Origin: Flavivirga sp. 57AJ16
Lineage (GTDB): Bacteria > Bacteroidota > Bacteroidia > Flavobacteriales > Flavobacteriaceae
DNA: 64,000 nucleotides
Direction: 5' to 3'
Assembly (NCBI RefSeq): GCF_028736925.1
Contig: NZ_JAQZAT010000007.1
Coordinates: 62,001 to 126,000 of the forward strand
Numbering within the stretch: the first letter of the stretch is position 1; the number at the start of each line of letters is the position of its first letter. The position numbers and the translations under genes are program-made. Positions 19,180-39,520 of this stretch are shown here, piece after piece. The notes below the pieces were generated by a model, which ran no database searches, was not told the DNA's origin, and was given only the letters and a program-made list of their open reading frames with translations.

Positions 19180-19205
19180 GACATCTGAATAGACATTTTT
19201 GTGAC
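19180..19205 (-). promoter_or_regulatory. ECF41-type promoter of the LRR lipoprotein
   Basis: On the minus strand GTCACA (19205-19200), 16 bp, then TGTC (19183-19180), ending 18 bp before the ATG at 19161. This is the same arrangement as five other promoters in the window. Confidence 0.6.
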
Positions 19206-19238
19206 ATCTTTTTTAAGAAAGTAAATGTTTGAAAATCT

Positions 19239-20021
19239 TTAACTAGTAGGCAGCATTTGCAATAAGTTTTTAGGTGTATAACCAGACCATCTTTTTACTT
19301 CCTTAATAAAGTGATTTTGGTCATAAAAGCCGTAATAAAAAAAATCTGGTATAAATCTGGTTCTTTGAATATGCTTAATAGCCAACCTGCAACGAATCAT
19401 TGATTGTACTTGTTTGGGCGATAATCCTGCATACTGCATAGATATGCGCTGAAGGTGTCTTTGACTTATTTGAAGGGCTTTGGCCATCTTAATAGACGAT
19501 GTTGAAAAGTTTTTACCTTGAATTATTAGATTTATAAATTGTGTCCACAATGCTTGTCCTTTACTATCTTGTTCATCAGAAAATTTTTCAATTTGTTTGT
19601 TAAAAGAATTGATAAATATAGCAGGCTGGACGTCTTCAAAAAAAGGTGTTAACCAATTATAATGAGGTAAAATGTCGTCCTGTAAAATAATTTTGTTGGT
19701 TAATATATTCGTTTCTTCTTTGAAAATAGGACGTGTACTTCCAAATTGAAAGGTCACTCCAAAAGCCAGATTTCCTTCGGGGTGTAAATATTCTGCAAAA
19801 TTGGTTCTTGGCCCTAGAATGCGTGTGTCTTTTATAACTAGTAATCCCGACTGATTGTCTTTAACAGTATATGGTGATCCAAGTGTAAACACCCAGTTCA
19901 CATAAGGATAGGCAAAAATATATTCCGTTACTCCATGTTGCCCTTTTGTGCTTAAATCAAGTAGCCAATAATAGCGTATCATATGGCGTAAATGTTCTGG
20001 TGGAGAAAATATTTGATACAT
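19239..20021 (-). CDS. AraC family transcriptional regulator
   Basis: A 260-residue regulator with an N-terminal sensory part typical of a common Bacteroidota AraC group (PPEHLRHMIRYYWLLD at the start, later GPRTNFAEYLHPEGNLAFGVTF) and a C-terminal double HTH (about 160-255: ALQISQRHLQRISMQYAGLSP and FYYGFYDQNHFIKEVKRWSGYTPK). Its ATG lies directly behind the stop of the upstream ketopantoate-reductase-like gene, with no spacer, so both are translated from one message. A 17-bp palindrome at 20977-20993 upstream of the pair is a candidate autoregulatory site. Confidence 0.8.
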   Translation of the reverse strand: MYQIFSPPEHLRHMIRYYWLLDLSTKGQHGVTEYIFAYPYVNWVFTLGSPYTVKDNQSGLLVIKDTRILGPRTNFAEYLHPEGNLAFGVTFQFGSTRPIFKEETNILTNKIILQDDILPHYNWLTPFFEDVQPAIFINSFNKQIEKFSDEQDSKGQALWTQFINLIIQGKNFSTSSIKMAKALQISQRHLQRISMQYAGLSPKQVQSMIRCRLAIKHIQRTRFIPDFFYYGFYDQNHFIKEVKRWSGYTPKNLLQMLPTS

Positions 20022-20936
20022 CTATCTATTTAATTCTGATTTTATTTTAACCAACTCCCCAAGTAACTTTGTTTCTTGGACTTGTGCTTCAAGGTTCATT
20101 TGTTTAGCAATTCTTATAACTTCCAAATTGAGAGTGTCTATTTCAGTTTCCCTTTTATTTTGAATGTCTTGCCATGTTGAAATGAATTGACCATCGGACA
20201 TTTTGCTGATGAAAATTATCTGATCCTCGATTTCTTTAGCTTCTAAAGTAATCCCTTTTTTCTTTGAGATGAGTACACATTCCTTAATGATTCTCTTGGC
20301 TAGAGAAAAGACTCCTGTATTTCTGTAAAAAACCCCATTATCAACTTCCAATAAGGGACATATGGAATTGAATACGCAATTAGCAATGGCCTTTTTCCAT
20401 ATAATTTTATCGATTTGTTTTTCAGCAATAAATCTGAATTCAGGTGTATCCATTTCCTTTACAATTGCTTCTAAAACTGTAATGTTCTGTCTGATTATAC
20501 CAATGGGAGATTCCGCTACAGGTTTATAACTAACTTCATTTTTTGAAATATTTTGGCAAGTTGTAAAAAGAACACATCTATAGATTTCATTAAAACCATG
20601 TTCAATAAATGGTATTTCTATACCTAAACCATTCTGCAAGATAACAATTGGAGTATTGAAAATTTTATCCTTCAGTTTTTTAACAAGTTTTCTATTGCCA
20701 AAGGATTTATTTGTAAGCACTACCAGACCATTAAATTTGGTAAAGTTACTTAAAGAATTAAACCTTACATTCGCTGTTAAATTTTGTCCTGATTTAAGTG
20801 TCAGCGTTAGCATTTCGCTATACAAACTACCATCGTCAACACTTCCTCGAATAAGCTGAACGTTTTTTCCGTGTCTTGTCAAGCAAACAGCCAATGTTTT
20901 ACCAATGGCCCCAGCACCAATTATGTATATATTCAT
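20022..20936 (-). CDS. ketopantoate reductase family protein (copy 1)
   Basis: A 304-residue protein with the N-terminal Rossmann motif IGAGAIGKTLAV (about 5-16), the ApbA/PanE central features (LTNKSFGNRKL, ILQNGLGIE) and a C-terminal helical domain containing WKKAIANCVFNSICPLLEVDNG (about 190-211), where the catalytic Lys and Asn of PanE lie. PanE reduces 2-dehydropantoate to pantoate for coenzyme A, but paralogues act on other 2-keto acids. A second family member is at 32735-33610, and this copy is paired with an AraC regulator, so a catabolic or accessory role is more likely than housekeeping. Confidence 0.7.
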   Translation of the reverse strand: MNIYIIGAGAIGKTLAVCLTRHGKNVQLIRGSVDDGSLYSEMLTLTLKSGQNLTANVRFNSLSNFTKFNGLVVLTNKSFGNRKLVKKLKDKIFNTPIVILQNGLGIEIPFIEHGFNEIYRCVLFTTCQNISKNEVSYKPVAESPIGIIRQNITVLEAIVKEMDTPEFRFIAEKQIDKIIWKKAIANCVFNSICPLLEVDNGVFYRNTGVFSLAKRIIKECVLISKKKGITLEAKEIEDQIIFISKMSDGQFISTWQDIQNKRETEIDTLNLEVIRIAKQMNLEAQVQETKLLGELVKIKSELNR

Positions 20937-20976
20937 TTATTTTAAATCTATCAAAACAACAAATTACGGTAAATCG

Positions 20977-20993
20977 TACTATTTTAAATAGTA
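20977..20993. promoter_or_regulatory. palindrome upstream of the panE-like/AraC operon
   Basis: TACTATTT-T-AAATAGTA is a perfect 8-bp inverted repeat with a single central base, 41 bp upstream of the ATG at 20936. It is a candidate operator for the AraC protein of the operon or another regulator. Confidence 0.35.
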
Positions 20994-21842: not shown

Positions 21843-22421
21843 ATGAAAGTATTTCTAAAAAGCTATCCAGATTTACTACTTCCTTATTCCATTTCAATTT
21901 TAGGTTCTTATGATGACGCAATGGATGTTATTCAAGATGTTATTTTAGCTTTTATACAAAAGGACAGAAGCCTTATAATAAATTATAAAAACTATTTAAT
22001 AAAAAGTACAATTAATAAGTCAATCTCTTTTAAACAAAAGTTCAATAGAAATCGATTTCAAAATATAGAGGAAATTAATACATTAGTTGAAAATGGTGAT
22101 TCGTCAGATTTTAATTTAATCAAAAAAGACAATTTTATACACTCTCCACTAATTGCTCAATTAGAAAGGATAAATAAAGTTGATAGAGCTATTTTTATTT
22201 TAAAATATGGGTTTGATTATAGCCATAAAGAAATTGCAAATCTTATAAAAATTGATGAGCAAAATTCACGCAAAATTTTAAGTAGAACAACACAAAAATT
22301 TGTAAAAATTAATACCATTAGCAATTCAAATATTACATTTAATAAAGATCTGCTTAATAAAATTAGCAAGAACGAAATGTTAGAAATAGAATTTTCATTA
22401 TTGGAAGGTGCTGCTTTGTAA
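21843..22421 (+). CDS. ECF sigma factor, ECF41-like but lacking the SnoaL-type tail
   Basis: A 192-residue sigma factor. Region 2 is in the N-terminal half (LPYSISILGSYDDAMDVIQDVI) and region 4 at about 100-155 (ILKYGFDYSHKEIANLIKIDEQNSRKILSRTTQKF). It is clearly paralogous to the 283-residue protein at 27658-28509 (ILGS--DA-D-IQDVIL, YLIKS-IN-SI, F-YSH--IA). The paralogue continues into a SnoaL-like C-terminal domain, whereas this one stops where that domain would begin, followed by a strong terminator. In characterised ECF41 factors that domain modulates activity, so this short form may be differently controlled. No anti-sigma gene is adjacent. Confidence 0.75.
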   Translation: MKVFLKSYPDLLLPYSISILGSYDDAMDVIQDVILAFIQKDRSLIINYKNYLIKSTINKSISFKQKFNRNRFQNIEEINTLVENGDSSDFNLIKKDNFIHSPLIAQLERINKVDRAIFILKYGFDYSHKEIANLIKIDEQNSRKILSRTTQKFVKINTISNSNITFNKDLLNKISKNEMLEIEFSLLEGAAL

Positions 22422-22436
22422 AATATTAAAGAAGTA

Positions 22437-22471
22437 GAGCCATAGAGAGTAATAAAAACTAACTATGGCTC
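22437..22471. terminator. bidirectional terminator, sigma gene / arsM
   Basis: GAGCCATAG at 22437-22445 and CTATGGCTC at 22463-22471 form a perfect 9-bp stem between two convergent genes. Confidence 0.65.
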
Positions 22472-22480
22472 ATTTAATAG

Positions 22481-23404
22481 TTAACAACACCCAGTTTCTG
22501 TACTAGATTCCGTTCCGCAACAACTTATTTTTTCAGATGTGGTATTTTCTTCGCTTCCACAACATCCACTATCTGTTGTTTCACAACAGCTGCCTTCTTC
22601 CAATTTGTCTGCATAGATTGTTATACTATAAATCCCAGAACCCGATTGTTTAAAATTGCCCAATTCTTGTTGATTTAGGTATTTTAATAACAAATCGTCG
22701 GGCAAGTCTATTTTTCGTTCTTTTTTAATTTGAATGTTTTTGAAACCTGCCGATTTGATAATTCCCAAATACTTACCTTTTTCACTGGCACCTGATACGC
22801 ATCCGGCATGCATTTCCGCTGCTTCTAAAATCCCTTTGGGAAGAGACCCAACATAAACAATATCTGAAATACTAAAATGTCCACCAGTTTTTAAAGTCCT
22901 GAAAACTTCGTTAAATGCTTTAGCTTTGTTTTGAACAAGGTTCATAACACAGTTGCTTATAACTACGTCTGCTGTGGAACTTGAAATATTTTGCATATCC
23001 TCGATTTCGCCTAATACAAATTCTACATTTTTATAACCTAGTTTTTGATTGTTTTTCAAAGCCTTTATAACCATTTCCGGGGTCATATCAATACCAATTA
23101 CCTTTCCAGTTTCACCAACTATTCTTCGAGCAATAAAGGCATCATTTCCTGCACCAGAACCAAGGTCGATAACTGTGTCGCCTTTATTAATGTTTGCAAT
23201 TTCTGTTGGAAGTCCACAACCCAAGGATAAGTCCGAATCTTTATCATAGCCTTCTATGTTTTCGTAGTTTACAGCCATTGAAGAGCTAAATTCGTCTGTA
23301 GTACAACATGCAACATCTGTTGAACAGCAACCTACTTGAATGTTGCCTTTTGCAATGTTTCCATAGGTTTTTTTGATTTCTTCTTTAATTGTTTCTGTTT
23401 TCAT
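22481..23404 (-). CDS. arsM: arsenite S-adenosylmethionine methyltransferase
   Basis: A 307-residue ArsM-type enzyme that methylates As(III) using SAM. SAM motif I is VIDLGSGAGNDAF (about 78-90), followed by VIGIDMTPEMVIKA, the family signature VISNCVMNLV (about 148-157) with its arsenic-binding Cys, and HAGCVSGA with the second conserved Cys (about 197). An N-terminal Cys cluster (VGCCSTDVACC) is also typical. The C-terminus is a tail with four CC pairs, probably metalloid-binding. It is transcribed behind the SigZ-like sigma gene, and both carry the same TTTGCGTC-N16-CGTS promoter motif, so this sigma factor probably controls it. Confidence 0.88.
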   Translation of the reverse strand: MKTETIKEEIKKTYGNIAKGNIQVGCCSTDVACCTTDEFSSSMAVNYENIEGYDKDSDLSLGCGLPTEIANINKGDTVIDLGSGAGNDAFIARRIVGETGKVIGIDMTPEMVIKALKNNQKLGYKNVEFVLGEIEDMQNISSSTADVVISNCVMNLVQNKAKAFNEVFRTLKTGGHFSISDIVYVGSLPKGILEAAEMHAGCVSGASEKGKYLGIIKSAGFKNIQIKKERKIDLPDDLLLKYLNQQELGNFKQSGSGIYSITIYADKLEEGSCCETTDSGCCGSEENTTSEKISCCGTESSTETGCC

Positions 23405-23432
23405 TTTTTTGAAATTTAATTGTTTACCTAAA

Positions 23433-23460
23433 CACGTAGAACAATTAAAAAAGACGCAAA
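23433..23460 (-). promoter_or_regulatory. SigZ-type promoter of arsM
   Basis: On the minus strand TTTGCGTC (23460-23453), 16 bp, then CGTG (23436-23433), 28 bp before the ATG at 23404. It matches the promoter of the adjacent sigma gene in sequence and spacing. Confidence 0.6.
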
Positions 23461-23463
23461 AAA

Positions 23464-24012
23464 TTAATCACAACTACAATTATTATCTTCTATGTCTATC
23501 AAGTTTCCATAACTGTCGCTTGGAAAATTGCAGCAGGCTAGTATGAGTTCTTTCAGTTTTTCTTTACCTCTCTGAACTCTTGATTTTGCACCTGAATAGG
23601 AAATATTAAGCTGTTCCGCCAAATCTTTTTGACTTATATTATCAAATTCCGATTTGGTCAAAGCCACTTGATATTTTTCAGGAAGCTGTTTAATAAAAGG
23701 TTTAATACAACAATCTGCAATAGTAGTGTTTAAAGATTTAATTTCGTTTTCAGAAATAAAAGAAGAATCGTTTTTAAATACAGCTTTTTGGGCAGATTTT
23801 CTAAAATGGTCTATTGTGGTGTTTCGGGCAATACCATAAATATATTGTTGTACACTTTTAGCTTGTTTTATTTTGTCTGCATTATCTATTATTTTAATAA
23901 ATACGTCCTGTAAAATATCATTGGTTATGTCTTCATCTTTAACTTTCTTTAGGATGAAAATTTTAAGTTCATCATTAAAGTCTTTCCATATTTCTTTTAC
24001 TATTTTGTTCAT
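23464..24012 (-). CDS. sigZ: SigZ-like ECF sigma factor with cysteine motifs
   Basis: A 182-residue sigma factor with region 2 at about 10-75 (DITNDILQDVFIKI) and region 4 at about 115-165 (LPEKYQVALTKSEFDNISQKDLAEQLNISYSGAKSRVQRGKEKL). Cysteines occur between the domains (ADCCIKPF, about 103) and at the C-terminus (ILACCNFPSD and CSCD), a set common to SigZ-like factors. These could sense thiol-reactive metalloids directly, which would fit the arsM gene next door and the lack of an anti-sigma gene. Direct sensing is inference. Its own promoter carries the TTTGCGTC-N16-CGTC motif, indicating autoregulation. Confidence 0.82.
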   Translation of the reverse strand: MNKIVKEIWKDFNDELKIFILKKVKDEDITNDILQDVFIKIIDNADKIKQAKSVQQYIYGIARNTTIDHFRKSAQKAVFKNDSSFISENEIKSLNTTIADCCIKPFIKQLPEKYQVALTKSEFDNISQKDLAEQLNISYSGAKSRVQRGKEKLKELILACCNFPSDSYGNLIDIEDNNCSCD

Positions 24013-24043
24013 TTTAAATTAAAAAATTATGTTTCAATAGTAA

Positions 24044-24071
24044 GACGAAATAATTTAAAGAAGGACGCAAA
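24044..24071 (-). promoter_or_regulatory. autoregulatory promoter of the SigZ-like gene
   Basis: On the minus strand TTTGCGTC (24071-24064), 16 bp, then CGTC (24047-24044), 31 bp before the ATG at 24012. The symmetrical GCGTC/CGTC form with 16-17 bp spacing is typical of ECF promoters. Confidence 0.6.
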
Positions 24072-24100
24072 CTACTTTTTATAACCTTCTATTATAAAAT

Positions 24101-24571
24101 TTAGTCCCAAATTAAGGGCCTTTCAACTTGTAATATTCTTAAATAAGATAACATTTGCCCACAATGAACAGCCTCATGATAAGCTATTCTATTTAAATAG
24201 TCACCCAGTATTTTCTTTTGTCCAACTTCAGTTCGTTTAATAATGATAGACTCAAAATCTTCAGTATTAAAATTTTTAATCATATTCATAAATGATTCTC
24301 TGTATGGTTTTGCAAACTCTAGTTCTTTTTCAATACTCTTATAGGGTAAGTCTTTCCATGGCGTTTCATAATCTCCAAGATTTCCTCTTTTTTCTATTAT
24401 TTTGTGAAATAAATGTTCACCTTCAAGAACATGTCTTACCATTTCAATAATACTCATTGCTGTATCGTCTGGTTTCCAATGGTAATTATTTGGGGAAATA
24501 TTTTCCCAAATTTTTTCGCTTCGTCTCCTAGTTTCTTTAAAATTCCATATTAAAATTTCGTTTGTGGTCAT
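24101..24571 (-). CDS. DinB-family protein
   Basis: A 156-residue four-helix-bundle DinB/YfiT-like protein. The metal-binding histidines are likely in MVRHVLEGEHLFH (about 48-60) and AYHEAVHCGQMLSYLR (about 131-146), the latter being the classic family C-terminal motif. These proteins include bacillithiol and other thiol transferases, many of unknown function. The start at 24571 is an ATG; the longer frame begins at a TTG. It is a single gene between two sigma-factor genes, and no shared promoter motif is visible. Confidence 0.78.
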   Translation of the reverse strand: MTTNEILIWNFKETRRRSEKIWENISPNNYHWKPDDTAMSIIEMVRHVLEGEHLFHKIIEKRGNLGDYETPWKDLPYKSIEKELEFAKPYRESFMNMIKNFNTEDFESIIIKRTEVGQKKILGDYLNRIAYHEAVHCGQMLSYLRILQVERPLIWD

Positions 24572-24680
24572 ATTTAATATGTTTATTAATCTATGGTAAA
24601 GGAAATTCAAATAATTTATAATGTTTTTAATATACTTTCTTCTGATAAATTAAAAAGTTTAGCATTATTTTTTATGCTTA

Positions 24681-25559
24681 TTAGCTAAAATTAAAAGTTT
24701 CTTTTACAATATTTGATGAAAGCATTTTTTTTATTGATTCTAAATTTTCGGGACTTTTTAGAAATGGGTGCTCTTGGTAAATTTTTTGATATTCTGATAT
24801 TAATTCACCTTGGTAAGTTTCTACTTTTTTAACTATTACTTTATTGATATTACTAATGACATTTTTTTGAAAATAAAGATTGACAGGATCCACAAACCCC
24901 ATTTTTATAAATCCGGCCGTTTTTCTAGCACAACGGCAAGGATTTTTTTTGTTTATCAGCCCACATTTATCATCCATAAAGTTGTAAAGTTGTTTTTTAG
25001 CTCTATGTAGTTTTACTCGGAAATTTTCTTTAGAAATTTCCATTATTTGACTTCCAATATTATCATTAAATTCAAATAATTCACCAATAATAAAAATCAT
25101 TCTTTGTTCTCTATCAAGACACAAAAGCATTCCTTTCATGCAACTTATTTTAGCTTCTTTAACTAAAATCTTGTTTTCTGCCTCCCAAGAATTACCTGAA
25201 AAAGATTCATTAGGAATTTTGTCAAGACCTTCTCCAAATTCATTAAAAGAGATAGCTTTAGCTTCATACTTCCCTCTTTTCATATTTAAGAAATGATTTT
25301 TGACAATGCGATATAACCAAGTTCTAAAATCACTTTCTTTTTTAAATAAACTTAATTTTGTTATAAGTTTAATTAAAACCTCTTGGGTAATATCGGCTGC
25401 TTCGTTATGGTCACTTACCATAGCAATAGCTATATTATAAATCCAATTTTGATGTTTTTTTATTAAATTTTCTAGAGCAATTTTATTACCATTTAAAACT
25501 TGGTCAATAAGTATATTGTCTTCTGTTTTTAAATTATTATTTTCAAATGTCCTATTCAT
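24681..25559 (-). CDS. ECF-type sigma factor with Cys-containing C-terminal extension
   Basis: A 292-residue sigma factor, longer than usual. Region 2 is at about 35-105 (AADITQEVLIKLITKLSLF, FRTWLYRIVKNHFLNMKRG) and region 4 at about 145-200 (CLDREQRMIFIIGELFEFNDNIGSQIMEISKENFRVKLHRAKK). A C-terminal extension of about 85 residues carries NPCRCARKTAGFIKMG, a conserved element of a Bacteroidota/Firmicutes sigma subgroup that may regulate the protein in place of an anti-sigma factor. The ATG at 25559 is preferred over an upstream TTG. It lies 34 bp behind the SRPBCC gene on the same strand, so both share one promoter (26053-26078). Confidence 0.78.
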   Translation of the reverse strand: MNRTFENNNLKTEDNILIDQVLNGNKIALENLIKKHQNWIYNIAIAMVSDHNEAADITQEVLIKLITKLSLFKKESDFRTWLYRIVKNHFLNMKRGKYEAKAISFNEFGEGLDKIPNESFSGNSWEAENKILVKEAKISCMKGMLLCLDREQRMIFIIGELFEFNDNIGSQIMEISKENFRVKLHRAKKQLYNFMDDKCGLINKKNPCRCARKTAGFIKMGFVDPVNLYFQKNVISNINKVIVKKVETYQGELISEYQKIYQEHPFLKSPENLESIKKMLSSNIVKETFNFS

Positions 25560-25593
25560 TATTAATATTATAATGACCAAATACTTGATCAAT

Positions 25594-26013
25594 TTAATTT
25601 ACTTCAAGAATGCTCTTCAATTTCATTAATTCTTGTGCTAACAATAATTTTTGAATTTTTAAAGTTCCTTCTAATTCTTCTAAAGGTACAGGTGGCGCTA
25701 GTAAAGTAAAAGTGTAAATGCTAGTTTTGCCGTTTTCAGAAATTCTAGAAAAAGCTTTTCCTATACTGCCGTCAGGCATTGTCATAACCCAATCAATAAT
25801 TCCTAAATCTTTAGATATTATAGTTTCTAATTTAATGTTTATCTCTCCATTTTCTGTGACCATTGTTGCAGATTCTTTTTCTACTTTTGTAAAAGCTTTT
25901 GTCCATAACGGTAAGTTTTTAGGTTCAGCTATAAAATCAAAAGCTTTTTTGTAATTAGCATAAATTTCGATGCTTTGTACGTCAAATGTTTTTTCTGGCA
26001 ATTGTTTCTTCAT
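25594..26013 (-). CDS. SRPBCC (START/AHSA1-like) domain protein
   Basis: A 139-residue single-domain protein of the SRPBCC fold: IEIYANYKKAFDFIAEPKNLPLWTKAFTKVE at the N-terminus is the typical ligand-cavity entry, followed by beta strands (IKLETIISKDLGIIDWVMTMPDGS) and a long C-terminal helix (EELEGTLKIQKLLLAQELMKLKSIL). Such proteins bind hydrophobic ligands. It is the first gene of a pair with the sigma factor at 24681-25559. A ligand-binding protein co-made with a sigma factor might act as its sensor or be a target; that is inference. Confidence 0.75.
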   Translation of the reverse strand: MKKQLPEKTFDVQSIEIYANYKKAFDFIAEPKNLPLWTKAFTKVEKESATMVTENGEINIKLETIISKDLGIIDWVMTMPDGSIGKAFSRISENGKTSIYTFTLLAPPVPLEELEGTLKIQKLLLAQELMKLKSILEVN

Positions 26014-26052
26014 TTTAATTATTTTAATTGTTTTAATTGTTTCTGTTATTTA

Positions 26053-26078
26053 GACACATTAAAATGAAGCCTGTTACA
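26053..26078 (-). promoter_or_regulatory. candidate ECF promoter of the SRPBCC-sigma pair
   Basis: On the minus strand TGTAACA (26078-26072), 15 bp, then TGTC (26056-26053), 39 bp before the ATG at 26013. It is similar to but distinct from the GTCACA sites of the ECF41-type regulon (CA to AA in the -35, one base shorter). Confidence 0.4.
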
Positions 26079-26197
26079 GTAAAATAAAAAATGAAGAGAA
26101 TATTAACTCGAAAATGTAATTAGCTACTATTTCACAACCCCTATAGTCTATATTAATGACGAAATAAATATATATCACTCTTGTTTTTATTGTAATA

Positions 26198-26701
26198 TTA
26201 TTCTTTATACACAGGAAGCATATTTGATTTGTCCACAGGAAAACTATCATATTTATTGTACAACTTTAAATACTTTTCCGGATTAATTGGTGTTTCATTT
26301 AAAGTTTCATATAAACCTTTAAAAAAACCTTCTCTTTTTTGGGCAGGGTTAAATATAAGTGTTATCGATGCGGGTTTATTAGTGTCGTTTCTAAAAGCAT
26401 GAGGTGTAAGCCTAGGAACATACACAATAGTTCCTACATCTCCTTTATATTCTTCCGTTCCGGCTTCTATGGTTACTATCCCTTCAGTAACCATAAAAGT
26501 TTCATCCATGAACCTATGATAGTGCAACTTGGCACCTATACTTTTTGGGGGAAGTGTTATTTTATAGATTCCTAATTGATCATTGGTTTCATTACTGGTG
26601 ATTTTGAAGTTTAAAATCATTTCATTGATATTAAGCTCATTACCTTCATGAGGTAAAACTACTGTTGCATTGTCTTCTAAAGTGTCTTCGAAATAATTCA
26701 T
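26198..26701 (-). CDS. cupin-domain protein
   Basis: A 167-residue cupin. Motif 1 is KLHYHRFMDETFMVTEGIVTIEAG (about 61-83; two His, one Glu) and motif 2 GDVGTIVYVPRLTPHAFRNDTNKPA (about 89-112; metal His). A C-terminal tail of about 45 residues (REGFFKGLYETLNETPINPEKYLKLYNKYDSFPV) is seen in a group of Bacteroidota cupins. Function is probably metal-dependent catalysis or ligand binding. It starts 10 bp after the azoreductase gene and is expressed with it from the GTCACA promoter at 27346-27371. Confidence 0.75.
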   Translation of the reverse strand: MNYFEDTLEDNATVVLPHEGNELNINEMILNFKITSNETNDQLGIYKITLPPKSIGAKLHYHRFMDETFMVTEGIVTIEAGTEEYKGDVGTIVYVPRLTPHAFRNDTNKPASITLIFNPAQKREGFFKGLYETLNETPINPEKYLKLYNKYDSFPVDKSNMLPVYKE

Positions 26702-26711
26702 TGAAATTGTT

Positions 26712-27320: not shown

Positions 27321-27345
27321 AATTATTTGTATTATTTTTAGATAT

Positions 27346-27371
27346 GACAAACACTTAAAAAAAAATGTGAC
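27346..27371 (-). promoter_or_regulatory. ECF41-type promoter of the azoreductase-cupin operon
   Basis: On the minus strand GTCACA (27371-27366), 16 bp, then TGTC (27349-27346), 25 bp before the ATG at 27320. Confidence 0.62.
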
Positions 27372-31726: not shown

Positions 31727-31749
31727 TTTAAAATTAAAACTCATTCAAT

Positions 31750-32187: not shown

Positions 32188-32201
32188 TTGAGCATTTTGT
32201 A

Positions 32202-32687
32202 ATGAAGCATCTATTTGAATACAATTGGCAAATAAGAAGTGAATGGTTCGAACTTTTAAAAACTATTCCAAAAGATGAGTTTTTAAAAGTGCGGACTGGA
32301 GGACATGGCAGTATTGCAAAGACATTATTTCATGTTATACAAGTGGAGCATAACTGGATTCAAGATTTAAAAGGTTTTCCAATTTCAAATGAAAAGTTTA
32401 ATGATTATAAAACTTTAGATAAAATTAAAAGGTTGTCAAACAATAATCATGAAGCTGTAAAATATGTTGTACGTCGAATTACGACTGATTATGAATATCA
32501 AATCCTAGAGATAAAAACCCTAAACGGTGATAAAATAATATGTACATATGGTGAAGCTTTAAGGCATATTATTGCTCACGAAATACATCATATGGGGCAA
32601 ATATCAGTTTGGACTAGAGAAATTGGTATTAAACCAATAAATGTAAACTTAATACATCGAGGGCTTTTTATTGATAATAAAGTTTAG
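32202..32687 (+). CDS. DinB-family protein
   Basis: A 161-residue DinB-like four-helix bundle. HVIQVEHNWIQDLKG (about 45-59) and LRHIIAHEIHHMGQISVWTREIG (about 124-146) contain the three metal-ligand histidines of the family. It belongs to a different subgroup from the copy at 24101-24571. It lies 14 bp after the AhpD-like gene and is surely co-transcribed. It is possibly a thiol-dependent transferase; this is uncertain. Confidence 0.8.
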   Translation: MKHLFEYNWQIRSEWFELLKTIPKDEFLKVRTGGHGSIAKTLFHVIQVEHNWIQDLKGFPISNEKFNDYKTLDKIKRLSNNNHEAVKYVVRRITTDYEYQILEIKTLNGDKIICTYGEALRHIIAHEIHHMGQISVWTREIGIKPINVNLIHRGLFIDNKV

Positions 32688-32734
32688 TGCAAATATTTAG
32701 TTTATCCTCATTTTAACAATTTAAAACAAGCAAA

Positions 32735-33610
32735 ATGAAAATTGGAATTTTCGGACTTGGTGCCATAGGTTCTGCACTAGCCGTAAAAATCAATGGCGAG
32801 CATAAGGTGTATTATTATAATAGATCGAACAGAGATAAGATCAAAATTTTGTGTAATGGAGTTCAATATGAAAAAGAAATTGAATTATCCAATGTAGATA
32901 CAAGCTATAACCTAGACTGGTTAATTATCTGTTTGAAAGAGTATCATTATAAAAGTGCTTTAAGTGATTTAAAGAAATTAATCAGTTCAAATACTAAAGT
33001 CGCTTTAGTAAGAAATGGTATCAATTTAAAAGAGTCTATTCAAGGACTTGTAGATGAAAATAAAGTAATCGAGTGTATGATAGACTGTCCTGTAGAAGAA
33101 ATGGGTAATCAAACTTATAAACAATTAAACAGAGCATTAATTACATCAAAAAATAGTCATGTATTTAGAGATTTTATAACTCTATTTAATCATAAAAGTG
33201 TGTCGTTTAATGAGGCCGATAATTATGTAACCGAAAATTGGAAAAAGATAATTATAAGTAGTGCAACAGGTGGTATTCTGGCGCTTATTGGTGAAAAGAG
33301 CTGGGTGTTAAAAGATCCTGAAATCCTGAAGTTATGTGCTAAAATTATCAGCGAAGGCATTGATGTTGCAAATCTATCTGGGGCTAAAATTGAAGATGAC
33401 TTTTTAAGGGAATTAGTAGAAGACATAAAAAGCTCATCAGGATCAAAAGGAAGTTCTATGCTAACTGACAGGCTTAACGGCAAACCTATTGAAGTTAATG
33501 CTAAAAATGGGGTTATTTCTTCATATGGCAAGAGATATGGGGTGAAAACAGAAATAAATGATTTAATAACAGTACTGCTAAAACATACAAATAATGAAAA
33601 AGATATTTAA
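32735..33610 (+). CDS. ketopantoate reductase family protein (copy 2)
   Basis: A 291-residue PanE/ApbA-type protein. GIFGLGAIGSALAVKI (about 3-18) is the NADP-binding loop. Central LICLKEYHYKSAL and VRNGINLKE replace the usual K-x-x and QNG motifs. NWKKIIISSATGGILALIGE (about 167-186) holds the catalytic Lys, and SSGSKGSSMLTDRLNGKPIEV (about 229-249) matches the family C-terminal substrate motif. It differs considerably from the copy at 20022-20936. Its 3' end overlaps the next gene by 17 bp. It is part of the Crp-linked array; the physiological substrate is unknown. Confidence 0.72.
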   Translation: MKIGIFGLGAIGSALAVKINGEHKVYYYNRSNRDKIKILCNGVQYEKEIELSNVDTSYNLDWLIICLKEYHYKSALSDLKKLISSNTKVALVRNGINLKESIQGLVDENKVIECMIDCPVEEMGNQTYKQLNRALITSKNSHVFRDFITLFNHKSVSFNEADNYVTENWKKIIISSATGGILALIGEKSWVLKDPEILKLCAKIISEGIDVANLSGAKIEDDFLRELVEDIKSSSGSKGSSMLTDRLNGKPIEVNAKNGVISSYGKRYGVKTEINDLITVLLKHTNNEKDI

Positions 33611-34160
33611 AAAACACAATGCATTCTCTTTTTATGTTCATTTATTAGTTTGTTTATTTCTCTCATTATTAAATTTTTCATGTAGTACAGAAGAAAATAT
33701 AGTAAGTCCTGATGACTTGGTTTCAAAGGAATTAATTGGTAAATGGGTACTTATTGATTATGAAAGCGAATATACTTTACATAGAGATTCAAATGAGTAT
33801 TTAATTTCTGAGTTATATACAGAATCTACCAATAAAATTGAATTTTTAGAATCCCCAAAAGTTATCCAGTCTGAAGGTTATGTAAAGTTTGAATCAAAGC
33901 AATACAAGGTAACAGCATCTGGTAATGTATTGGTTCATCAAACATACTTTTCGTTGGCCGATATATTATACTATTCAAATGCGAAATGGTATGTAGAAGA
34001 AGGGCAGGTTATAATAAAGCCAACAAATGTAGATAGTGAAGAAAGTATGATTAGTATAAATGTTAACATGCTAAACAATACTTTGACAATTATGGTAACA
34101 GAATCAATATTGGATGAAGGTTTTCAAGGTACAACAATTTTTAAATACCAGCGAGAATAA
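33594..34160 (+). CDS. lipocalin-like lipoprotein
   Basis: A 188-residue protein with a long signal peptide ending LLNFSC (Cys30), indicating a lipoprotein. The mature part begins TEENIVSPDDLVSKELIGKWVLIDYE; the ELIGKWVL motif is the usual start of Bacteroidota lipocalin-like domains, followed by beta strands. It probably sits in the outer membrane or faces the periplasm and may bind a small hydrophobic ligand. It starts within the end of the ketopantoate-reductase-like gene (17-bp overlap). No close function can be assigned. Confidence 0.65.
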   Translation: MKKIFKKHNAFSFYVHLLVCLFLSLLNFSCSTEENIVSPDDLVSKELIGKWVLIDYESEYTLHRDSNEYLISELYTESTNKIEFLESPKVIQSEGYVKFESKQYKVTASGNVLVHQTYFSLADILYYSNAKWYVEEGQVIIKPTNVDSEESMISINVNMLNNTLTIMVTESILDEGFQGTTIFKYQRE

Positions 34161-34186
34161 TTTAGTAAACATCATATTTAGGAATA

Positions 34187-34738
34187 ATGAAAAATAGAAT
34201 AAAACCTTTAGAAAAGCCTCTTAGTGCGAGTACACAAGAGCTTATGGATAAGATATTTCCAAGTGTTCTTCCAAGCCCAAATTTGTATCGGTTAGTTGCT
34301 AAAAATGAAGCGCTTTTTGGTGAGTTAGTAGAAAGTAAGTTTATAGGAAAGACAGGACTATATGATAGAAAAAGAATAGCCCCAGATTTAAGAGAGAAAA
34401 TAGTTTTAAGGGTCTGTGTAATCTCAAAAAATGATTATGAGTTTTCTTTGCATGAAGATACTATATCTGCTCAAATGGGGGTTACCAATGAACAGTTGAA
34501 GGATATAAAAAACCTAAAATACAATTCAGAATTATGGAATGAAAAAGAGGCTGCTGTATTTGATGTTATTACGCCCTTATTGCAATCTGAAAAAGTGGAA
34601 GATCATATAGTAGAAAACCTCAAGCTTTATTTTTCAGAAAGTGAAATAATTGATATTATTTTTTTAGTAGGTCTTTATCATACTGTTTCAATGATGGTAA
34701 ATATAGCTCAATTGGAAAAAGACAATTATAAACAGTAA
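34187..34738 (+). CDS. carboxymuconolactone decarboxylase family protein
   Basis: A 183-residue helical protein of the CMD family without the AhpD Cys pair: the active-site region reads LRVCVISKNDYEFSLHEDTISAQMG (about 71-95), keeping the Glu and His but with only one Cys. This pattern is common in Bacteroidota relatives of 4-carboxymuconolactone decarboxylase whose substrates are unknown. The remainder (WNEKEAAVFDVITPLL, IIDIIFLVGLYHTVSMMVN) fits the family fold. It lies 26 bp after the lipoprotein gene and 4 bp before the MaoC-like gene. Confidence 0.78.
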   Translation: MKNRIKPLEKPLSASTQELMDKIFPSVLPSPNLYRLVAKNEALFGELVESKFIGKTGLYDRKRIAPDLREKIVLRVCVISKNDYEFSLHEDTISAQMGVTNEQLKDIKNLKYNSELWNEKEAAVFDVITPLLQSEKVEDHIVENLKLYFSESEIIDIIFLVGLYHTVSMMVNIAQLEKDNYKQ

Positions 34739-34742
34739 TATT

Positions 34743-35600
34743 ATGAGTAAGGGGTTATCTAAAATGGAATCTTTAATTATACCTGCTTTTAAAACGCTAT
34801 TAAAAGGGAAAAAAATATCAAAAGAGGGTATTCATTTAAAACATTTCTACAACAAAGTAGAGATCGATAAAATTAAGTTAGATAGGTTCATTAATTATTT
34901 CAATTTTACAACCAAGACACCTATTTCTTATTTATATGTTTTTGCACAAAGAGCTCAAACAAGTTTAATGCTTGACAAGAAATTTACTTTGGCAATACCA
35001 GGAATGATTCATATTGAGAATAATCTTGTTATGTATTTAGATTATAGCACAAATCATCCAATAGACATAAAAGTAACTGTTAATGTTGATTATAAAGCGG
35101 AAGGATCATTAAAACCGGTCTTCTTCGTTGAAATCTACCAAAATGGGAAGCATATTTGTAGCTGTAAGAGTATTTATATAGTTAAGCGAAAATCAAGAAA
35201 GAACTCAAAAAGAAGCAATAAGGAAAAAGAGAGTATTGAAACATATAGTTCAAGCCTAAAATGGAAATTAGATTCGAGTATTGCAAAAGAATACGCAAAA
35301 ATTTCAGGAGATAAGAATCCTATACACACATCTAGTTTGTTCTCTAAAATGCTAGGATTTAAAAGCTCAATAATTCATGGTTGGTACTCAATATGTGAAA
35401 TTGAACATATTTATAATAAGGTGCATAAAAAAAGCGCATCTGAAATTCATGTGAATTTTCATAATGCAATCACATTACCAAATGAGCCTATCTTGGAGTT
35501 TGAGCTTTCTGATGATGATTTGCTAGTATTTCAAGTAAAAAATGCAGAGGAATCAAAACTTTTTTTAAAAGGCAATATTAAGCCATTAACCTTTACTTAA
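34743..35600 (+). CDS. MaoC-like hydratase/dehydratase domain protein
   Basis: A 285-residue double-hotdog protein. The N-terminal half is diverged. The C-terminal half carries the hydratase-2 signature: YAKISGDKNPIHTSSLFSKMLGFKSSIIHGWY (about 184-215), with Asp and His of the catalytic dyad in GDKNPIH and the IHG motif. Members hydrate enoyl-CoA in fatty-acid or polyketide metabolism. A Lys/Arg-rich linker (KRKSRKNSKRSNKEKES, about 147-163) separates the halves. It is 4 bp from the CMD gene and in the same array. Confidence 0.78.
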   Translation: MSKGLSKMESLIIPAFKTLLKGKKISKEGIHLKHFYNKVEIDKIKLDRFINYFNFTTKTPISYLYVFAQRAQTSLMLDKKFTLAIPGMIHIENNLVMYLDYSTNHPIDIKVTVNVDYKAEGSLKPVFFVEIYQNGKHICSCKSIYIVKRKSRKNSKRSNKEKESIETYSSSLKWKLDSSIAKEYAKISGDKNPIHTSSLFSKMLGFKSSIIHGWYSICEIEHIYNKVHKKSASEIHVNFHNAITLPNEPILEFELSDDDLLVFQVKNAEESKLFLKGNIKPLTFT

Positions 35601-35647
35601 ACATCATTCTAATAAAAATTTAAGTGCTAATAATTAATTGAATCGAA

Positions 35648-36499
35648 ATGAAAAAAATAATATATCTTTTAAGTTTTCTAATTGTAGGCTGTGCATCAGT
35701 TAAAGAAATAATTCAAAATGATGTTAAAGTGCAACTTGTTAGAAACGCAACAGTAAAACTTACTGTAAACAATAAAACCATCTTAATCGATCCTATTTTA
35801 GGAGCTAAAGGAGAAAACGACCCAATTCCTTTTTCAAATAAAATAAGAAATCCAACAGCTAATTTACCTACTAGCGTAGAAGATATCATTAAAAATATAG
35901 ATGCTGTTTTATTAACTCATAATCATCCAGACCATTTAGACAGTACTGCAATTAATGCGTTGCCAAAACACATAACATTTTTTTGTCAGCCTTCAGATTT
36001 GGAATCATTGCAAAATCAAGGATTTGAAAATCTCATCCCAATTAATTCAGAATTTAATTGGGAAGGAGTTATTATAAGCAGATATGGAGCTAGCCATCAT
36101 ATTGGAGCTACTGGCGAACCCCCTTTTGGCGAGTCTTCTTCCTTTAGTGTGAAATTTAATGACAATTCAATCTTTATTACAGGTGATGCTATTCTAGATG
36201 AAAAGCTTACTGCTAGTTTAAAAAAGTCTAGCCCAAGTTGGATAATAGCAAATACCGGAGAATGTCAATTCACCAAAGAAAATCCTGTTCTTCAGCCAGG
36301 TCAGTTAATGACCTTGTCTAAAGAAGAGTTAAAGCAAATAAGCCTATTAATGCCAGAAGCAAAAATTATAGCTGTACATCTTGAGTCTATAAATCACTGT
36401 AGTTTAACTAGAGAAGAAATTAAATTGTTTCTTAAATCTAATGATCTAATAAATAAGATATTGGTTCCGAATGACAATGATATAATTAGATTGAATTAA
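35648..36499 (+). CDS. MBL-fold metallohydrolase with lipoprotein signal
   Basis: A 283-residue protein starting MKKIIYLLSFLIVGC, a short lipoprotein signal with Cys15. The body is an UlaG/RomA-like metallo-beta-lactamase fold: RNATVKLTVNNKTILIDPILG (about 32-52), the metal motif LTHNHPDHLD (about 95-104), YGASHHIGATGEPPFG (about 149), FITGDAILDE (about 177-186) and VHLESINHCSLTREE near the end. It probably hydrolyses a small ester, lactone or phosphodiester. It lies 47 bp after the MaoC gene and ends the first part of the array before Crp site c. Confidence 0.78.
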   Translation: MKKIIYLLSFLIVGCASVKEIIQNDVKVQLVRNATVKLTVNNKTILIDPILGAKGENDPIPFSNKIRNPTANLPTSVEDIIKNIDAVLLTHNHPDHLDSTAINALPKHITFFCQPSDLESLQNQGFENLIPINSEFNWEGVIISRYGASHHIGATGEPPFGESSSFSVKFNDNSIFITGDAILDEKLTASLKKSSPSWIIANTGECQFTKENPVLQPGQLMTLSKEELKQISLLMPEAKIIAVHLESINHCSLTREEIKLFLKSNDLINKILVPNDNDIIRLN

Positions 36500-36525
36500 T
36501 TTATACAAACCAGGAAAAATAAACT

Positions 36526-36572
36526 TTCTTAAACCAGCTTAATTTTTTTCGAGTTAAAGAATAATACTTTTA
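36526..36572 (+). promoter_or_regulatory. Crp/Fnr-type operator plus -7-like element (site c)
   Basis: TTCTTAAACCAGCTTAATTT at 36526-36545 is identical to site b over the first 17 bases; the right arm is degenerate. TACTTTTA at 36565-36572 is one base off TAnnTTTG. Centre-to-box spacing is again exactly 29.5 bp. It precedes the DUF6624-hydrolase operon. Confidence 0.6.
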
Positions 36573-36642
36573 TACCAAGTAAAAAGACAACTTTAGCTTT
36601 TATTAATTTTTGACTTGAATCAATGCACTTTTTACCAATTAT

Positions 36643-37242
36643 ATGGATACCAAAATAATAGCACAAAAAATTATTGGTTTAAAAAATCAAGATGAAAAAT
36701 TAAGAAATGAACTGATAAAAAGCGGTAATCTTTCTAAAGGGTACAACAAAGAAATGGAGGCATTGCACAATAGTAATGCAAAAGAATTAAATCAATTAAT
36801 TGATGAAATTGGTTATCCAACCAAAGATAAAGTGGGTAAAGAAGCAAGTGAAGCGGCTTGGTTAATAATACAACATACCATAAGTCAACCCAACTTTATG
36901 AGAAAATGTGCAAAGTTATTATCGGAAGCAGTTAAACAAAAAAAGGCTAACCCTATAAGTTTGGCTTACTTAACAGATCGTATAGCCGTTTTTGAAGGAA
37001 AACCTCAACGCTATGGAACGCAATTTGACTGGAACAAAAATGGAGACTTAAGACCAAACCAATATGATGATTTAATCAAAGTAAACAAAAGAAGAAAATC
37101 TATCGGTCTTAACGCTCTTGAAGAACAAATTCAAGTAATGCAAAAGCGAGTTGAGAAAGAGAATCAATCACCACCAATAGATTTTCAAGAAAGAAAAATA
37201 GAATATGATAATTGGAGAAAATCAGTCGGTTGGATAAAATAA
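36643..37242 (+). CDS. DUF6624 family protein
   Basis: A 199-residue soluble protein matching the DUF6624 pattern: GYPTKDKVGKEASEAAWLIIQH (about 58-79), AYLTDRIAVFEGKPQRYGTQF (about 107-127) and a tail with EYDNWRKSVGWI. The block of conserved Trp, His, Asp and Tyr residues suggests an enzyme, but no function is known to me. It is the first gene behind Crp-type site c and is followed after 40 bp by a dehalogenase-like hydrolase. Confidence 0.75.
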   Translation: MDTKIIAQKIIGLKNQDEKLRNELIKSGNLSKGYNKEMEALHNSNAKELNQLIDEIGYPTKDKVGKEASEAAWLIIQHTISQPNFMRKCAKLLSEAVKQKKANPISLAYLTDRIAVFEGKPQRYGTQFDWNKNGDLRPNQYDDLIKVNKRRKSIGLNALEEQIQVMQKRVEKENQSPPIDFQERKIEYDNWRKSVGWIK

Positions 37243-37282
37243 AAATAGAGAACTAGTTAAACGAGTAAAACAAAAAGTTTTA

Positions 37283-38158
37283 ATGGCCTCAAAAATTAAT
37301 CAATACAATTGGGTAGATAAAAATGTATTTCCTTTTAAATCAAATTACTTTCAAACAAAGAGTGGTAAAATTCATTATGTAGACGAAGGTGAGGGAGAAA
37401 TAATACTATTTGTTCATGGTACACCTACCTGGTCTTTTCTATACCGGAATTTTATTTCTGCATTATCAAAAGAATACAGGTGTATTGCTGTAGATAATTT
37501 AGGGTTTGGTCTTTCCGATAAACCAGAAGGTTTTGATGGAACACCTGAAGCTCATGCCAATAATTTATCTCAATTCATACAAGAATTGAATTTATCAAAC
37601 ATCACATTGGTTGTTCACGATTTTGGTGGGCCTATAGGTTTGGGGGCTGCGATTAAAAATCATAATAGAATTAAACAAGTGATAATGTTTAATACTTGGC
37701 TATGGGAAACAAAGAGTAATAAAGGCGCTCGAAAGGTAGATAAAATATTGAATAGTACAATTGGTAAGTTTCTCTATTTGCGAATGAATTTCTCGCCAAA
37801 AGTATTGCTTAAAAAAGGCTTTTATGGCAAGAAGAGATTAACTAAAAAAGTACATAAGCAATACATTTTGCCATTCCCAAATAAATCTTCAAGATGGTCT
37901 TTATTAAACATTGGGAAATCTCTAGTAGGGTCTTCCAGTTGGTATGAGCAACAGTGGGAGCAATTACATGATTTGGAATCTAAACCATGGCTGATTTTAT
38001 GGGGAATCAAAGATGAGTTTGTCACATTAGAATACCTCGAAAAATGGAGACAAAGATTGACAAACTCAAAAGTTGTGAAATTTGATTGTGGGCATTTTGT
38101 TCAGGAAGAAAAACCAACAGAAGCTATTAAGGAAATTCAAAAATTTTTAAAAAGATGA
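37283..38158 (+). CDS. alpha/beta hydrolase of the haloalkane-dehalogenase type
   Basis: A 291-residue hydrolase. The nucleophile is the Asp in VVHDFGGPIG (about 111-120), the oxyanion region is FVHGTPTWSFLYRN (about 43-56), the acid probably lies in LWGIKDEFV (about 240), and the His is in CGHFVQEEKP (about 272-281), the latter very typical of haloalkane dehalogenases. However, two residues that hold the halide in known dehalogenases are changed: Trp after the nucleophile is Phe, and the Asn of HGNP is Thr. So it may act on another substrate. It overlaps the next gene by 4 bp (ATGA). Confidence 0.75.
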   Translation: MASKINQYNWVDKNVFPFKSNYFQTKSGKIHYVDEGEGEIILFVHGTPTWSFLYRNFISALSKEYRCIAVDNLGFGLSDKPEGFDGTPEAHANNLSQFIQELNLSNITLVVHDFGGPIGLGAAIKNHNRIKQVIMFNTWLWETKSNKGARKVDKILNSTIGKFLYLRMNFSPKVLLKKGFYGKKRLTKKVHKQYILPFPNKSSRWSLLNIGKSLVGSSSWYEQQWEQLHDLESKPWLILWGIKDEFVTLEYLEKWRQRLTNSKVVKFDCGHFVQEEKPTEAIKEIQKFLKR

Positions 38159-38541
38159 CAGTAAAGATTGCTAAAATTTTGTCAGCATATTTAATAATAA
38201 CAGGTATCGGTTTTTTGATATCAGGTGAGTTTTATGAAACTCTAATTTCTCATAAAGCAACAAACCCTATTTTGATTAATCTATCTGGAATGGTTCATTT
38301 TTTTATTGGGATGATCATTTTAGTAATCCATTGCAAGTGGAAAAATATATTGCAGATATTAGTTTCCTCTTTAGGCTTTATGTTCTTTATTAAGGGAGTT
38401 TTATTGATAGTAATACCCGAGTTAATCCTTCAAACAGGAGATAATGCAATGCAAAAACCTTGGTTAATGTCACTTGGTTTTATCTCTGTAGGGATAATAA
38501 TGGAATACTTAATTTTTAAAGAAAAAAAACAATTCAACTAG
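38155..38541 (+). CDS. small integral membrane protein
   Basis: A 128-residue protein with four likely membrane helices (about 8-24, 42-60, 68-90 and 104-122) and short polar loops. The layout recalls small DUF-type four-helix proteins that accompany hydrolases or oxidoreductases. No motif allows a function to be assigned. It is translationally coupled to the upstream hydrolase through ATGA and lies 2 bp before the beta-propeller gene. Confidence 0.6.
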   Translation: MTVKIAKILSAYLIITGIGFLISGEFYETLISHKATNPILINLSGMVHFFIGMIILVIHCKWKNILQILVSSLGFMFFIKGVLLIVIPELILQTGDNAMQKPWLMSLGFISVGIIMEYLIFKEKKQFN

Positions 38542-38543
38542 TT

Positions 38544-39464
38544 ATGAGATTTTCATCTGTTTTTAAAATATCTTTTTTATGGTTTGTACTTATAGTCAGT
38601 TGTAGAAATAGTCAAGTACAACCTAATTTTGAACTTCCAGCTAATAAACCTCAACTCATAGCCCCAAACTTTATAAATACAGATAGTGTTGAAATAAACG
38701 TAGTCTTTAATAATGCTATGGATGAGTGCTTTTTTATGCGAATAGTTAATAAGCATTTTTTAATATTTCATACAGAATTAAAACAAAAAAAGTGGTCTAA
38801 ACCAGAGCCCATTTATATGTTCAATAAAGATTCCATTTCACACGCTATAGACATGACTTTAACCCAAGATGGCAATACCATGTATTTCTTGGGAGTCAGT
38901 CCACAAGATATTACGGGCAAAAACCCATCAGATATTTATAAAAGTGAAAAAGTAAAAGGTAAATGGCAAAAAGCATCAAAAGTTGCATATCCAGTCTCAA
39001 CAGATGAGTATGTAGAATCATACCCAATTGTTGTAGCCGATGGAAGTTTATATTTCACTTCTAATCGACCAGATAGTTTTGGTGGGAGAGATATATACCG
39101 AGCACAATATAATGAAAATGGAACTTTCGAAAAGCCAGAAAATTTGGGCCCGCCAATTAGCACTGTTGAGAATGACGGTACGACATATGTATCACCAGAT
39201 GAACAATTTTTGGTTACTACACCAAAGAATTCTAAAGGGTTCTACATTTCGTACAAAAGGGATAATAAATGGCAGCCATTAAAGTTTCTTGATGTGGGAA
39301 TTAATTTTGAAGAAGGCTGGGTGTATATGTGTCCCTATGTATTACCAGATGGAAAGCACCTTATTTATTCAAGAAGATACAACAATCCAAATGACAAAAG
39401 TTGGAACGGGGTGGAAAAAGGTGAGGTATATTGGGTGGATATAAGCAGATATACAACCAATTAA
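38544..39464 (+). CDS. WD40-like (PD40) beta-propeller lipoprotein
   Basis: A 306-residue protein with a lipoprotein-like signal ending LIVSC (Cys20). The body has repeated PD40/TolB-like blades: MTLTQDGNTMYFLG, SPQDITGKNPSDIYKSEKVKGKW, YPIVVADGSLYFTSNRPDSFGGRDIYRA (about 165-192) and YVSPDEQFLVTTP. The SNRPDSFGGRDIYRA segment is typical of Bacteroidota periplasmic propeller proteins. The role may be sensing or binding on the cell envelope. It is the last gene of the operon behind site c; the next promoter (39495) belongs to PhzF. Confidence 0.72.
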   Translation: MRFSSVFKISFLWFVLIVSCRNSQVQPNFELPANKPQLIAPNFINTDSVEINVVFNNAMDECFFMRIVNKHFLIFHTELKQKKWSKPEPIYMFNKDSISHAIDMTLTQDGNTMYFLGVSPQDITGKNPSDIYKSEKVKGKWQKASKVAYPVSTDEYVESYPIVVADGSLYFTSNRPDSFGGRDIYRAQYNENGTFEKPENLGPPISTVENDGTTYVSPDEQFLVTTPKNSKGFYISYKRDNKWQPLKFLDVGINFEEGWVYMCPYVLPDGKHLIYSRRYNNPNDKSWNGVEKGEVYWVDISRYTTN

Positions 39465-39494
39465 AATAATTATATAATCTCTTTATAAGAAATT

Positions 39495-39520
39495 GTCACA
39501 AAATTGAGGTTTTTTTGGTC
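39495..39520 (+). promoter_or_regulatory. ECF41-type promoter of the PhzF operon
   Basis: GTCACA (39495-39500), 16 bp, then GGTC (39517-39520), only 8 bp before the ATG at 39529. It fits the shared spacing but has G in place of T in the -10. Confidence 0.52.

Follow-up and report, generated by a model that had tools for sequence, protein, structure and literature searches.

A probable ECF41-type sigma factor regulon of about six promoters in a flavobacterial genome

We analyze a 64-kb stretch of the genome of Flavivirga sp. 57AJ16 (contig NZ_JAQZAT010000007.1, C50 in our numbering, 62001-126000; hereafter "the window"), in which the gene for an extracytoplasmic function (ECF) sigma factor of the ECF41 type, P0001, lies among repeated copies of a promoter-like motif, GTCACA followed at fixed spacing by GTC. 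We think it probable that P0001 reads about six promoters, including that of its own gene, and that it is gated by its own C-terminal extension. What we observe are the site sequences, how seldom such sites occur outside genes, where they stand, and a cross-genome association of this promoter type with ECF41 genes. Listed below, in ascending order of position, are the sigma gene and the six sites.

19180-19205, minus strand: probable promoter of a leucine-rich repeat (LRR) lipoprotein-like gene, 18 bp before the ATG; from motif and placement.
27346-27371, minus strand: predicted azoreductase-cupin promoter, 25 bp before the ATG at 27320; matrix score 23.1, the highest in the window; found at the same place in the loci of relatives.
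27658-28509, minus strand: P0001, ECF41-type sigma factor of 283 amino acids with sigma2, a WLPEP linker, sigma4 and a SnoaL-like C-terminal extension carrying DGGEK and DPKKL; from profile, alignment and fold.
28534-28560, minus strand: predicted sigma gene promoter, GTCACA-N18-GTC, 24 bp before the ATG; matrix score 19.1, third in the window.
29946-29971, minus strand: probable promoter of a dienelactone hydrolase (DLH)-HAD gene pair, divergent to the site at 29998, 24 bp before the ATG; from motif and placement.
29998-30023, plus strand: predicted promoter of a plus-strand run headed by two GNAT genes, 24 bp before the ATG; matrix score 21.7, second in the window.
39495-39520, plus strand: possible PhzF-TauE promoter, 8 bp before the ATG; from motif and placement.

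A search of the window for GTCACA-N15..18-GTC returns these six matches. The word GTCACA occurs ten times: all six intergenic copies lie within the motif, and none of the four coding copies does (8028, 25855, 38021 and 57831, all in listed open reading frames, ORFs). A preliminary description, made from the sequence, had claimed that every intergenic GTCACA belongs to the motif and stands 8-25 bp before a start codon, and this is borne out at all six places; distances are counted between the last base of GTC and the start codon, with the ATG at 27320 rather than the TTG of the ORF list taken as the azoreductase start. It had also assigned the sites to the standard ECF41 promoter (TGTCACA, 16 +/- 1 bp, CGTC), which holds in part. 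GTCACA and the spacing agree at six of six sites and the first T at four, the other two reading AGTCACA; the C of CGTC is found at none, the base before GTC being, in order of position, T, T, T, A, T and G, which gives a TGTC-like -10 element.

A chance origin of the six sites was rejected by tests at the level of the window, of its intergenic DNA and of genome-wide placement. Shuffling the window gave 0.32 expected matches, and 0 of 100 shuffles reached the observed six; shuffling the intergenic DNA (9298 bases, n = 3000) gave a mean of 0.016 sites and a maximum of 1. Across the genome (4.92 Mb, 52 contigs), GTCACA-N17/18-GTC has 20 matches and the pattern read backwards 14. The six in the window are intergenic, while the other 14 all lie inside ORFs of at least 100 amino acids, defined by that length and not as confirmed genes (Fisher p 2.6e-5); the search of all 4.92 Mb found no further intergenic site of the GTCACA form. 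The matches also cluster, with 6 of 20 falling in 20.3 kb (p 2e-10) and, for TGTCACA in the same layout, 4 of 11 in the window block (p 9e-8). Once A or G is allowed at the sixth place, the genome total equals that of the backward control (31 each among the matches listed), so the signal lies in placement and clustering and not in the number of matches. The preliminary description had proposed comparing the motif with its frequency in coding and random intergenic DNA; with that comparison run, placement and clustering hold.

The same description took the protein at 27658-28509 for a SigJ/ECF41-type sigma factor with a DGGGK motif. The sigma type is supported by a full-length match to NCBIfam TIGR02957 (SigX4; residues 3-277, profile positions 5-280 of 281, E 2.9e-63), a match to NCBIfam SigJ (E 1.8e-52) and an exact WLPEP in the aligned linker; DGGGK did not stand, as the extension reads DGGEK, together with DPKKL. 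DGGGK/R is a conserved motif of ECF41 extensions, which are SnoaL-like and ~100 amino acids long. NPDKL is another (PMC7730460). Among six TIGR02957 members above the cut-off, five have DGGGK and all six NP(D/E)KL, and the alignment shows both motifs varying in other flavobacterial members too. Pfam finds sigma region 4 (PF08281, E 5.3e-11) and, under the gathering score, region 2 (PF04542, E 4.1e-4), the two regions that make up a group 4 sigma factor, and a phmmer search of solved structures finds SigJ 5xe7 (E 1.4e-13). In a tree that lacked Ecf41Bli, Ecf41Rsp and SigJ, P0001 groups with TIGR02957 members above the cut-off, apart from two other sigma factors of the window (fork 87/80); the duplicates L176, L178 and L186 had been removed from alignment and tree, and the broken copy L185 from the tree only. 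The direct neighbours of the gene encode a HAD phosphatase and an azoreductase, with no anti-sigma gene beside it.

The promoter type is linked to ECF41 genes well beyond this genome. Such genes are sparse, occurring in 18 of 397 Flavobacteriaceae genomes (E 1e-30) and, phylum-wide, in 19 of 296 (TIGR02957), although 11 of 12 genomes of the genus, our own counted, have one. A tight pattern, GTCACRTTTN12/13TTGTC, is present in 16 of the 18 ECF41-bearing genomes (31 sites) versus 19 of the 379 that have no ECF41 gene (one site each; p 4e-17), and its backward control, present in 3 of 18 and, counted by hand, 49 of 379, has no link to the gene. Ours is the one genome of the 18 whose tight sites number more than two: of its five, three are in the window, one lies behind a sigma gene on contig C15 and one is on contig C12.

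For gene content, 39 genes of the block were compared by tblastn with 48 ECF41 loci (47 different ones, L076 and L105 being the same contig), whose flanks reached at most ~10 kb per side and sometimes ended with the contig; five of the six window sites lie within ~10 kb of P0001. An azoreductase relative is found in 24 of the 48, a cupin of 50% identity or more close to the sigma gene in 22, and a relative of the window's carboxymuconolactone decarboxylase (CMD) in 12. Most of the relatives' loci carry GTCAC(G/A)TTTT-N11-TTGTC or a near form both at the sigma gene and at the gene next to it, which is mostly an azoreductase. On sequence grounds, then, sigma-azoreductase-cupin (28509-26198 in the window) is a common flavobacterial ECF41 module and not a novelty; what is added here are the DLH-HAD pair, the GNAT-led plus-strand run, the LRR gene and PhzF-TauE. 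The window has six strict sites, against no more than two in 43 of the 46 other ECF41 loci; the exceptions are L200 with three, L115 with four and L189 with four, none of the last intergenic with a start. These are total strict sites, compared because counts of intergenic sites with a start took ATG only and so undercounted those of TTG-start sigma genes. The extra sites of L115 (genome G169), at 8135 and 19364, precede genes that read as secreted-protein-like and NAD(P)/FAD oxidoreductase-like, and their presence means that regulon growth may not be unique to our genome.

A further ranking came from a weight matrix of 52 sites in 28 loci of relatives, with our own genome excluded. The training sites were chosen by hand beside sigma or partner genes (leaving out L115 8135, L115 19364 and L119 9113), and they are not independent, many coming from one genus. 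They give the flavobacterial form TGTCAC(G/A)TTTT, 11 bp, TTGTC. The matrix places the sites at 27371, 29998 and 28560 at the top of the window, followed by a score of 10.0; over 544 kb of loci from relatives, it also scores above 16 at a few places that were not used for training, among them a broken gene of genome G007 and an extra L115 site. The promoters of the sigma gene, the azoreductase-cupin pair and the GNAT run thus appear well supported, and the preliminary description's six-promoter regulon stands for these three; the LRR, DLH and PhzF promoters, for which motif and placement speak, are probable, PhzF least so, as they have no T-tract and fall outside the matrix top 25.

Several observations weigh against a six-promoter regulon read by P0001. 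Its TIGR02957 score, 213.7 bits, is under the cut-off of 323.25, the SigJ match is also under its curated cut-off, and Pfam SnoaL_2 gives no significant match (E 0.19). A structural model, attempted with four sequences, is poor (pLDDT 60.9, pTM 0.31) and usable as weak support only; its best Foldseek matches are SigJ 5xe7 and then SigG1, both SnoaL-type sigma factors, at TM-scores below 0.3 (SigJ 0.28). Two of the 18 ECF41 genomes, G040 and G431, have no tight pattern, and where targets of ECF41 factors were measured in the papers compared, for three factors, each had a single one. The sites at 19205, 29971 and 39495 do not have the T-tract present in nearly all training sites, the last lies only 8 bp from its ATG and is the weakest of the six, and a second full-length ECF41 protein, described below, could read the same sites.

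The points about individual sites lead to the reading that only the three promoters matched by the matrix are real, the LRR, DLH and PhzF sites being chance or decayed matches and the locus an ordinary module with one extra operon. We consider this unlikely: the weaker sites are intergenic and directly before starts, against 14 of 14 elsewhere in ORFs; the chance of three such sites in the window is ~7e-7; and the T-tract is not universal, since ydfG of B. licheniformis has TGTCACAAACT, which also departs from CGTC (PMC3426412).

A search of a collection of genome contigs with P0001 returned two relatives. Besides P0001, our genome has ECF41-like sequence at the following places.

21843-22421, plus strand: P0002, a truncated ECF41-like sigma factor of 192 amino acids, 35 bp behind a thiE-like gene; TIGR02957 E 6.5e-21.
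Contig C15 (locus L121, 9648-9824): a full-length ECF41 copy with the promoter motif behind the gene and an azoreductase partner match that ends after ~59 residues.
Contig C12 (locus L133, ~9640-9741): a promoter, then 16 residues of a lost ECF41 copy.

P0002 shares 39% identity with P0001 residues 1-186 (among the matches listed). By alignment it keeps sigma2, sigma4 with the NSRK(I/L)xSR helix, and the first extension helices, and it is without WLPEP and everything from DGGGK onward; the motif search of the window gave it no GTCACA site of its own. Its branch is long (2.42) and its tree position unsure, and a frame that is open despite such a branch speaks for constraint. Truncated variants of Ecf41Bli, whose lengths were not aligned residue by residue with P0002, differ widely in activity: at 204 amino acids it is ~20-fold above full length, at 192 clearly less than at 204, and at 167 inactive (PMC3426412). 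In one other family, three genomes (G617, G489 and G578; loci L201, L202 and L203) have ECF41-like genes of 203-207 amino acids, with TGTCACA-N16-GTC before a neighbouring gene that reads as desaturase-like.

These copies make it conceivable that reading of the six sites falls, in whole or in part, to a different ECF41-type sigma factor, either the C15 copy or P0002, which is without the inhibitory part. Both are in the genome, the azoreductase match beside the C15 copy is short, C12 retains little but its promoter, and P0002 has kept its sigma4 helix. The C15 and C12 sites (those examined among 11 GTCACG matches in our genome) read GTCACG, however, as against GTCACA at all six window sites, and P0001 and the C15 copy belong to different clades. 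The first of these objections is weakened by L107, which has one site of each kind, so that the sixth base may not discriminate; L109 (A) and L113 (G) likewise differ within one genus, and a strict orthogonality of the two forms is not claimed. Overall, we judge a different reader improbable.

Promoters without an intact gene occur in other genomes as well. G012 (L204), one of the 19 non-ECF41 genomes with a tight site, has a fossil promoter beside what is left of a lost ECF41 gene, 22 residues, and L132 (G007) has a broken gene with its motif intact; alongside the tight sites of G289 and G029 we found no ECF41 remnant. From these sequences the ECF41 gene seems to have been lost repeatedly with its promoter left behind (L133, L132, L204).

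TCACA is also half of the Crp palindrome, and the window has Crp/Fnr-type regulator genes at 14115-14690 and 31108-31686, relatives of each being present in 14 of the 48 ECF41 loci. The product of the second gene has a cNMP-binding domain; the first is Crp/Fnr-like by sequence similarity only. Were GTCACA a half-site for such a regulator instead of a sigma -35 element, the fixed-spacing GTC and the ECF41 link across genomes would be left unexplained, and TGTGA-N6-TCACA occurs at none of the six sites (site plus 30 bp each side). We regard this as very improbable.

The genes around the sites and the other sigma genes nearby are as follows.

17782-19161, minus strand: LRR lipoprotein-like gene (PF23598, PF13855), a putative lipoprotein as read from its N-terminus.
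23464-24012: SigZ-type sigma factor, next to an arsenite methyltransferase gene, ArsM (22481-23404).
24681-25592: sigma factor with a C-terminal extension.
26198-26701, minus strand: cupin (PF07883), third gene of the module.
26712-27320, minus strand: FMN-dependent NADH-azoreductase-like, flavodoxin-fold enzyme (PF02525, E 2.5e-40).
28565-29212, minus strand: HAD phosphatase (PF13419).
29205-29921, minus strand: dienelactone hydrolase family gene (PF01738).
30048-31069, plus strand: two GNAT acetyltransferase genes (Pfam).
31750-32187, plus strand: CMD, AhpD-like (PF02627, E 1.3e-18; TIGR00778), fourth gene of the plus-strand run.
39529-41197, plus strand: PhzF-family isomerase and TauE/SafE permease genes (PF02567, PF01925).

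Four ECF-type sigma genes are thus found within 7 kb (21843-28509). The preliminary description was incomplete in its inventory, having missed the CMD gene, the truncated sigma gene at 21843-22421 and the full-length copy on C15. The plus-strand run (30048-42133) has gaps of at most 143 bp, its first four genes being -4, 38 and 63 bp apart, and its one same-strand terminator-like match falls within the TauE gene, at 40967. The CMD gene, of a kind classically partnered with ECF41 genes, sits in this run behind the 29998 promoter, and its co-transcription is putative. Scans of the window were uninformative both for sigma-70 promoters, with no more promoter-like matches than in shuffles, and for terminators (3 matches versus 4.5 expected and 7 versus 4.3).

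On the reading we favor, P0001 would be held low by its own SnoaL-like extension, a gating taken over from published homologues, until a small molecule relieves it; our guess is a quinone or another aromatic electrophile, since the set of enzymes, azoreductase among them, suggests by inference a quinone or electrophile response. The freed sigma factor would direct RNA polymerase to TGTCAC(A/G)-N16/17-nGTC promoters. At most flavobacterial loci its targets would be its own gene and the azoreductase-cupin pair, whereas here the regulon would have expanded to some six promoters within 20 kb, well supported at the sigma gene, azoreductase-cupin and GNAT/CMD run and probable at DLH-HAD, LRR and PhzF-TauE. 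P0001 would transcribe its own gene, a positive autoregulation, and transcription from 29998 may read through the long plus-strand run. As the preliminary description had proposed, the LRR lipoprotein and PhzF would then probably be new target types for ECF41.

The sigma factor and its targets are probably an accessory unit, since sigma, DLH and PhzF, the block genes covered in this comparison, are without a close counterpart in 11 congeners. The best identity to P0001 there is at most 49% (n = 11), none of the 11 gave a match to DLH at E 1e-20, and PhzF has only 34-36% matches in two. P0001 forms a clade with L177, L119, L077 (Paraflavitalea) and P0002 (support 98/90), separate from the genus orthologues and the C15 copy of its own genome. 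The GC content of 16-43 kb is 0.293, versus 0.307-0.346 in six other stretches of the genome. No tRNA that could mark an insertion point lies in the 64-kb window, and a plasmid search, with homologues below 60% identity in 408 records, was uninformative on mobility. A bolder and, in our view, improbable proposal is that the block forms a complete electrophile/quinone response in itself and is carried horizontally, in which the gated sigma factor travels with its six-promoter regulon and the truncated sister at 21843-22421 acts as an ungated or competing reader at the same promoters. If so, natural truncation would be a recurrent way of unhooking ECF41 sigma factors from their sensor; the 203-207-amino-acid genes beside a TGTCACA site in three genomes point the same way.

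Among known systems, Ecf41Bli of B. licheniformis and Ecf41Rsp of R. sphaeroides (Wecke et al. 2012, PMC3426412) share with P0001 the fused C-terminal extension, WLPEP, the absence of an adjacent anti-sigma gene, a partner of the COE (carboxymuconolactone decarboxylase, oxidoreductase or epimerase) type and a TGTCACA-type promoter before both sigma and partner genes. In those systems the extension is described as holding down sigma activity, which would be released once a small molecule alters its conformation (PMC3426412, PMC8999054); Wecke et al. knew of no inducing condition. Our locus differs in its -10 element (TGTC, AGTC or GGTC instead of CGTC), in the DGGEK and DPKKL variants and in its six promoters, as against the one target gene or operon that PMC3426412 describes and argues to be general. 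RpoE9 of Sinorhizobium meliloti (PMC6180224) likewise shares an ECF41 sigma factor, a CMD partner and matching -35 and -10 elements, but has a single reported target. Wider roles for ECF41 are not unheard of, since RpoE10 of Azospirillum acts beyond a COE gene, in the control of lateral flagella (PMC12826043, PMC8999054). ECF56 SigG1 (PMC7730460), our second-best fold match, shares the SnoaL_2 extension and differs in having an anti-sigma partner, RsfG, and in being without NPDKL. The flavobacterial sigma-azoreductase-cupin loci (most of L103-L131) have the same gene order and promoters in the same places but usually two promoters, mostly GTCACG, with extra sites only in L115. Our literature searches found no paper on flavobacterial ECF41 regulons, and six promoters are unusual relative to the papers and loci compared.

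Up to six promoters before azoreductase, DLH, GNAT-CMD and PhzF genes would narrow the likely signal to an aromatic or electrophilic compound and make several reporters available. The locus also offers a flavobacterial form of the ECF41 promoter, together with natural truncations of a sigma factor that, when shortened by engineering, turns hyperactive or dead according to the length left.

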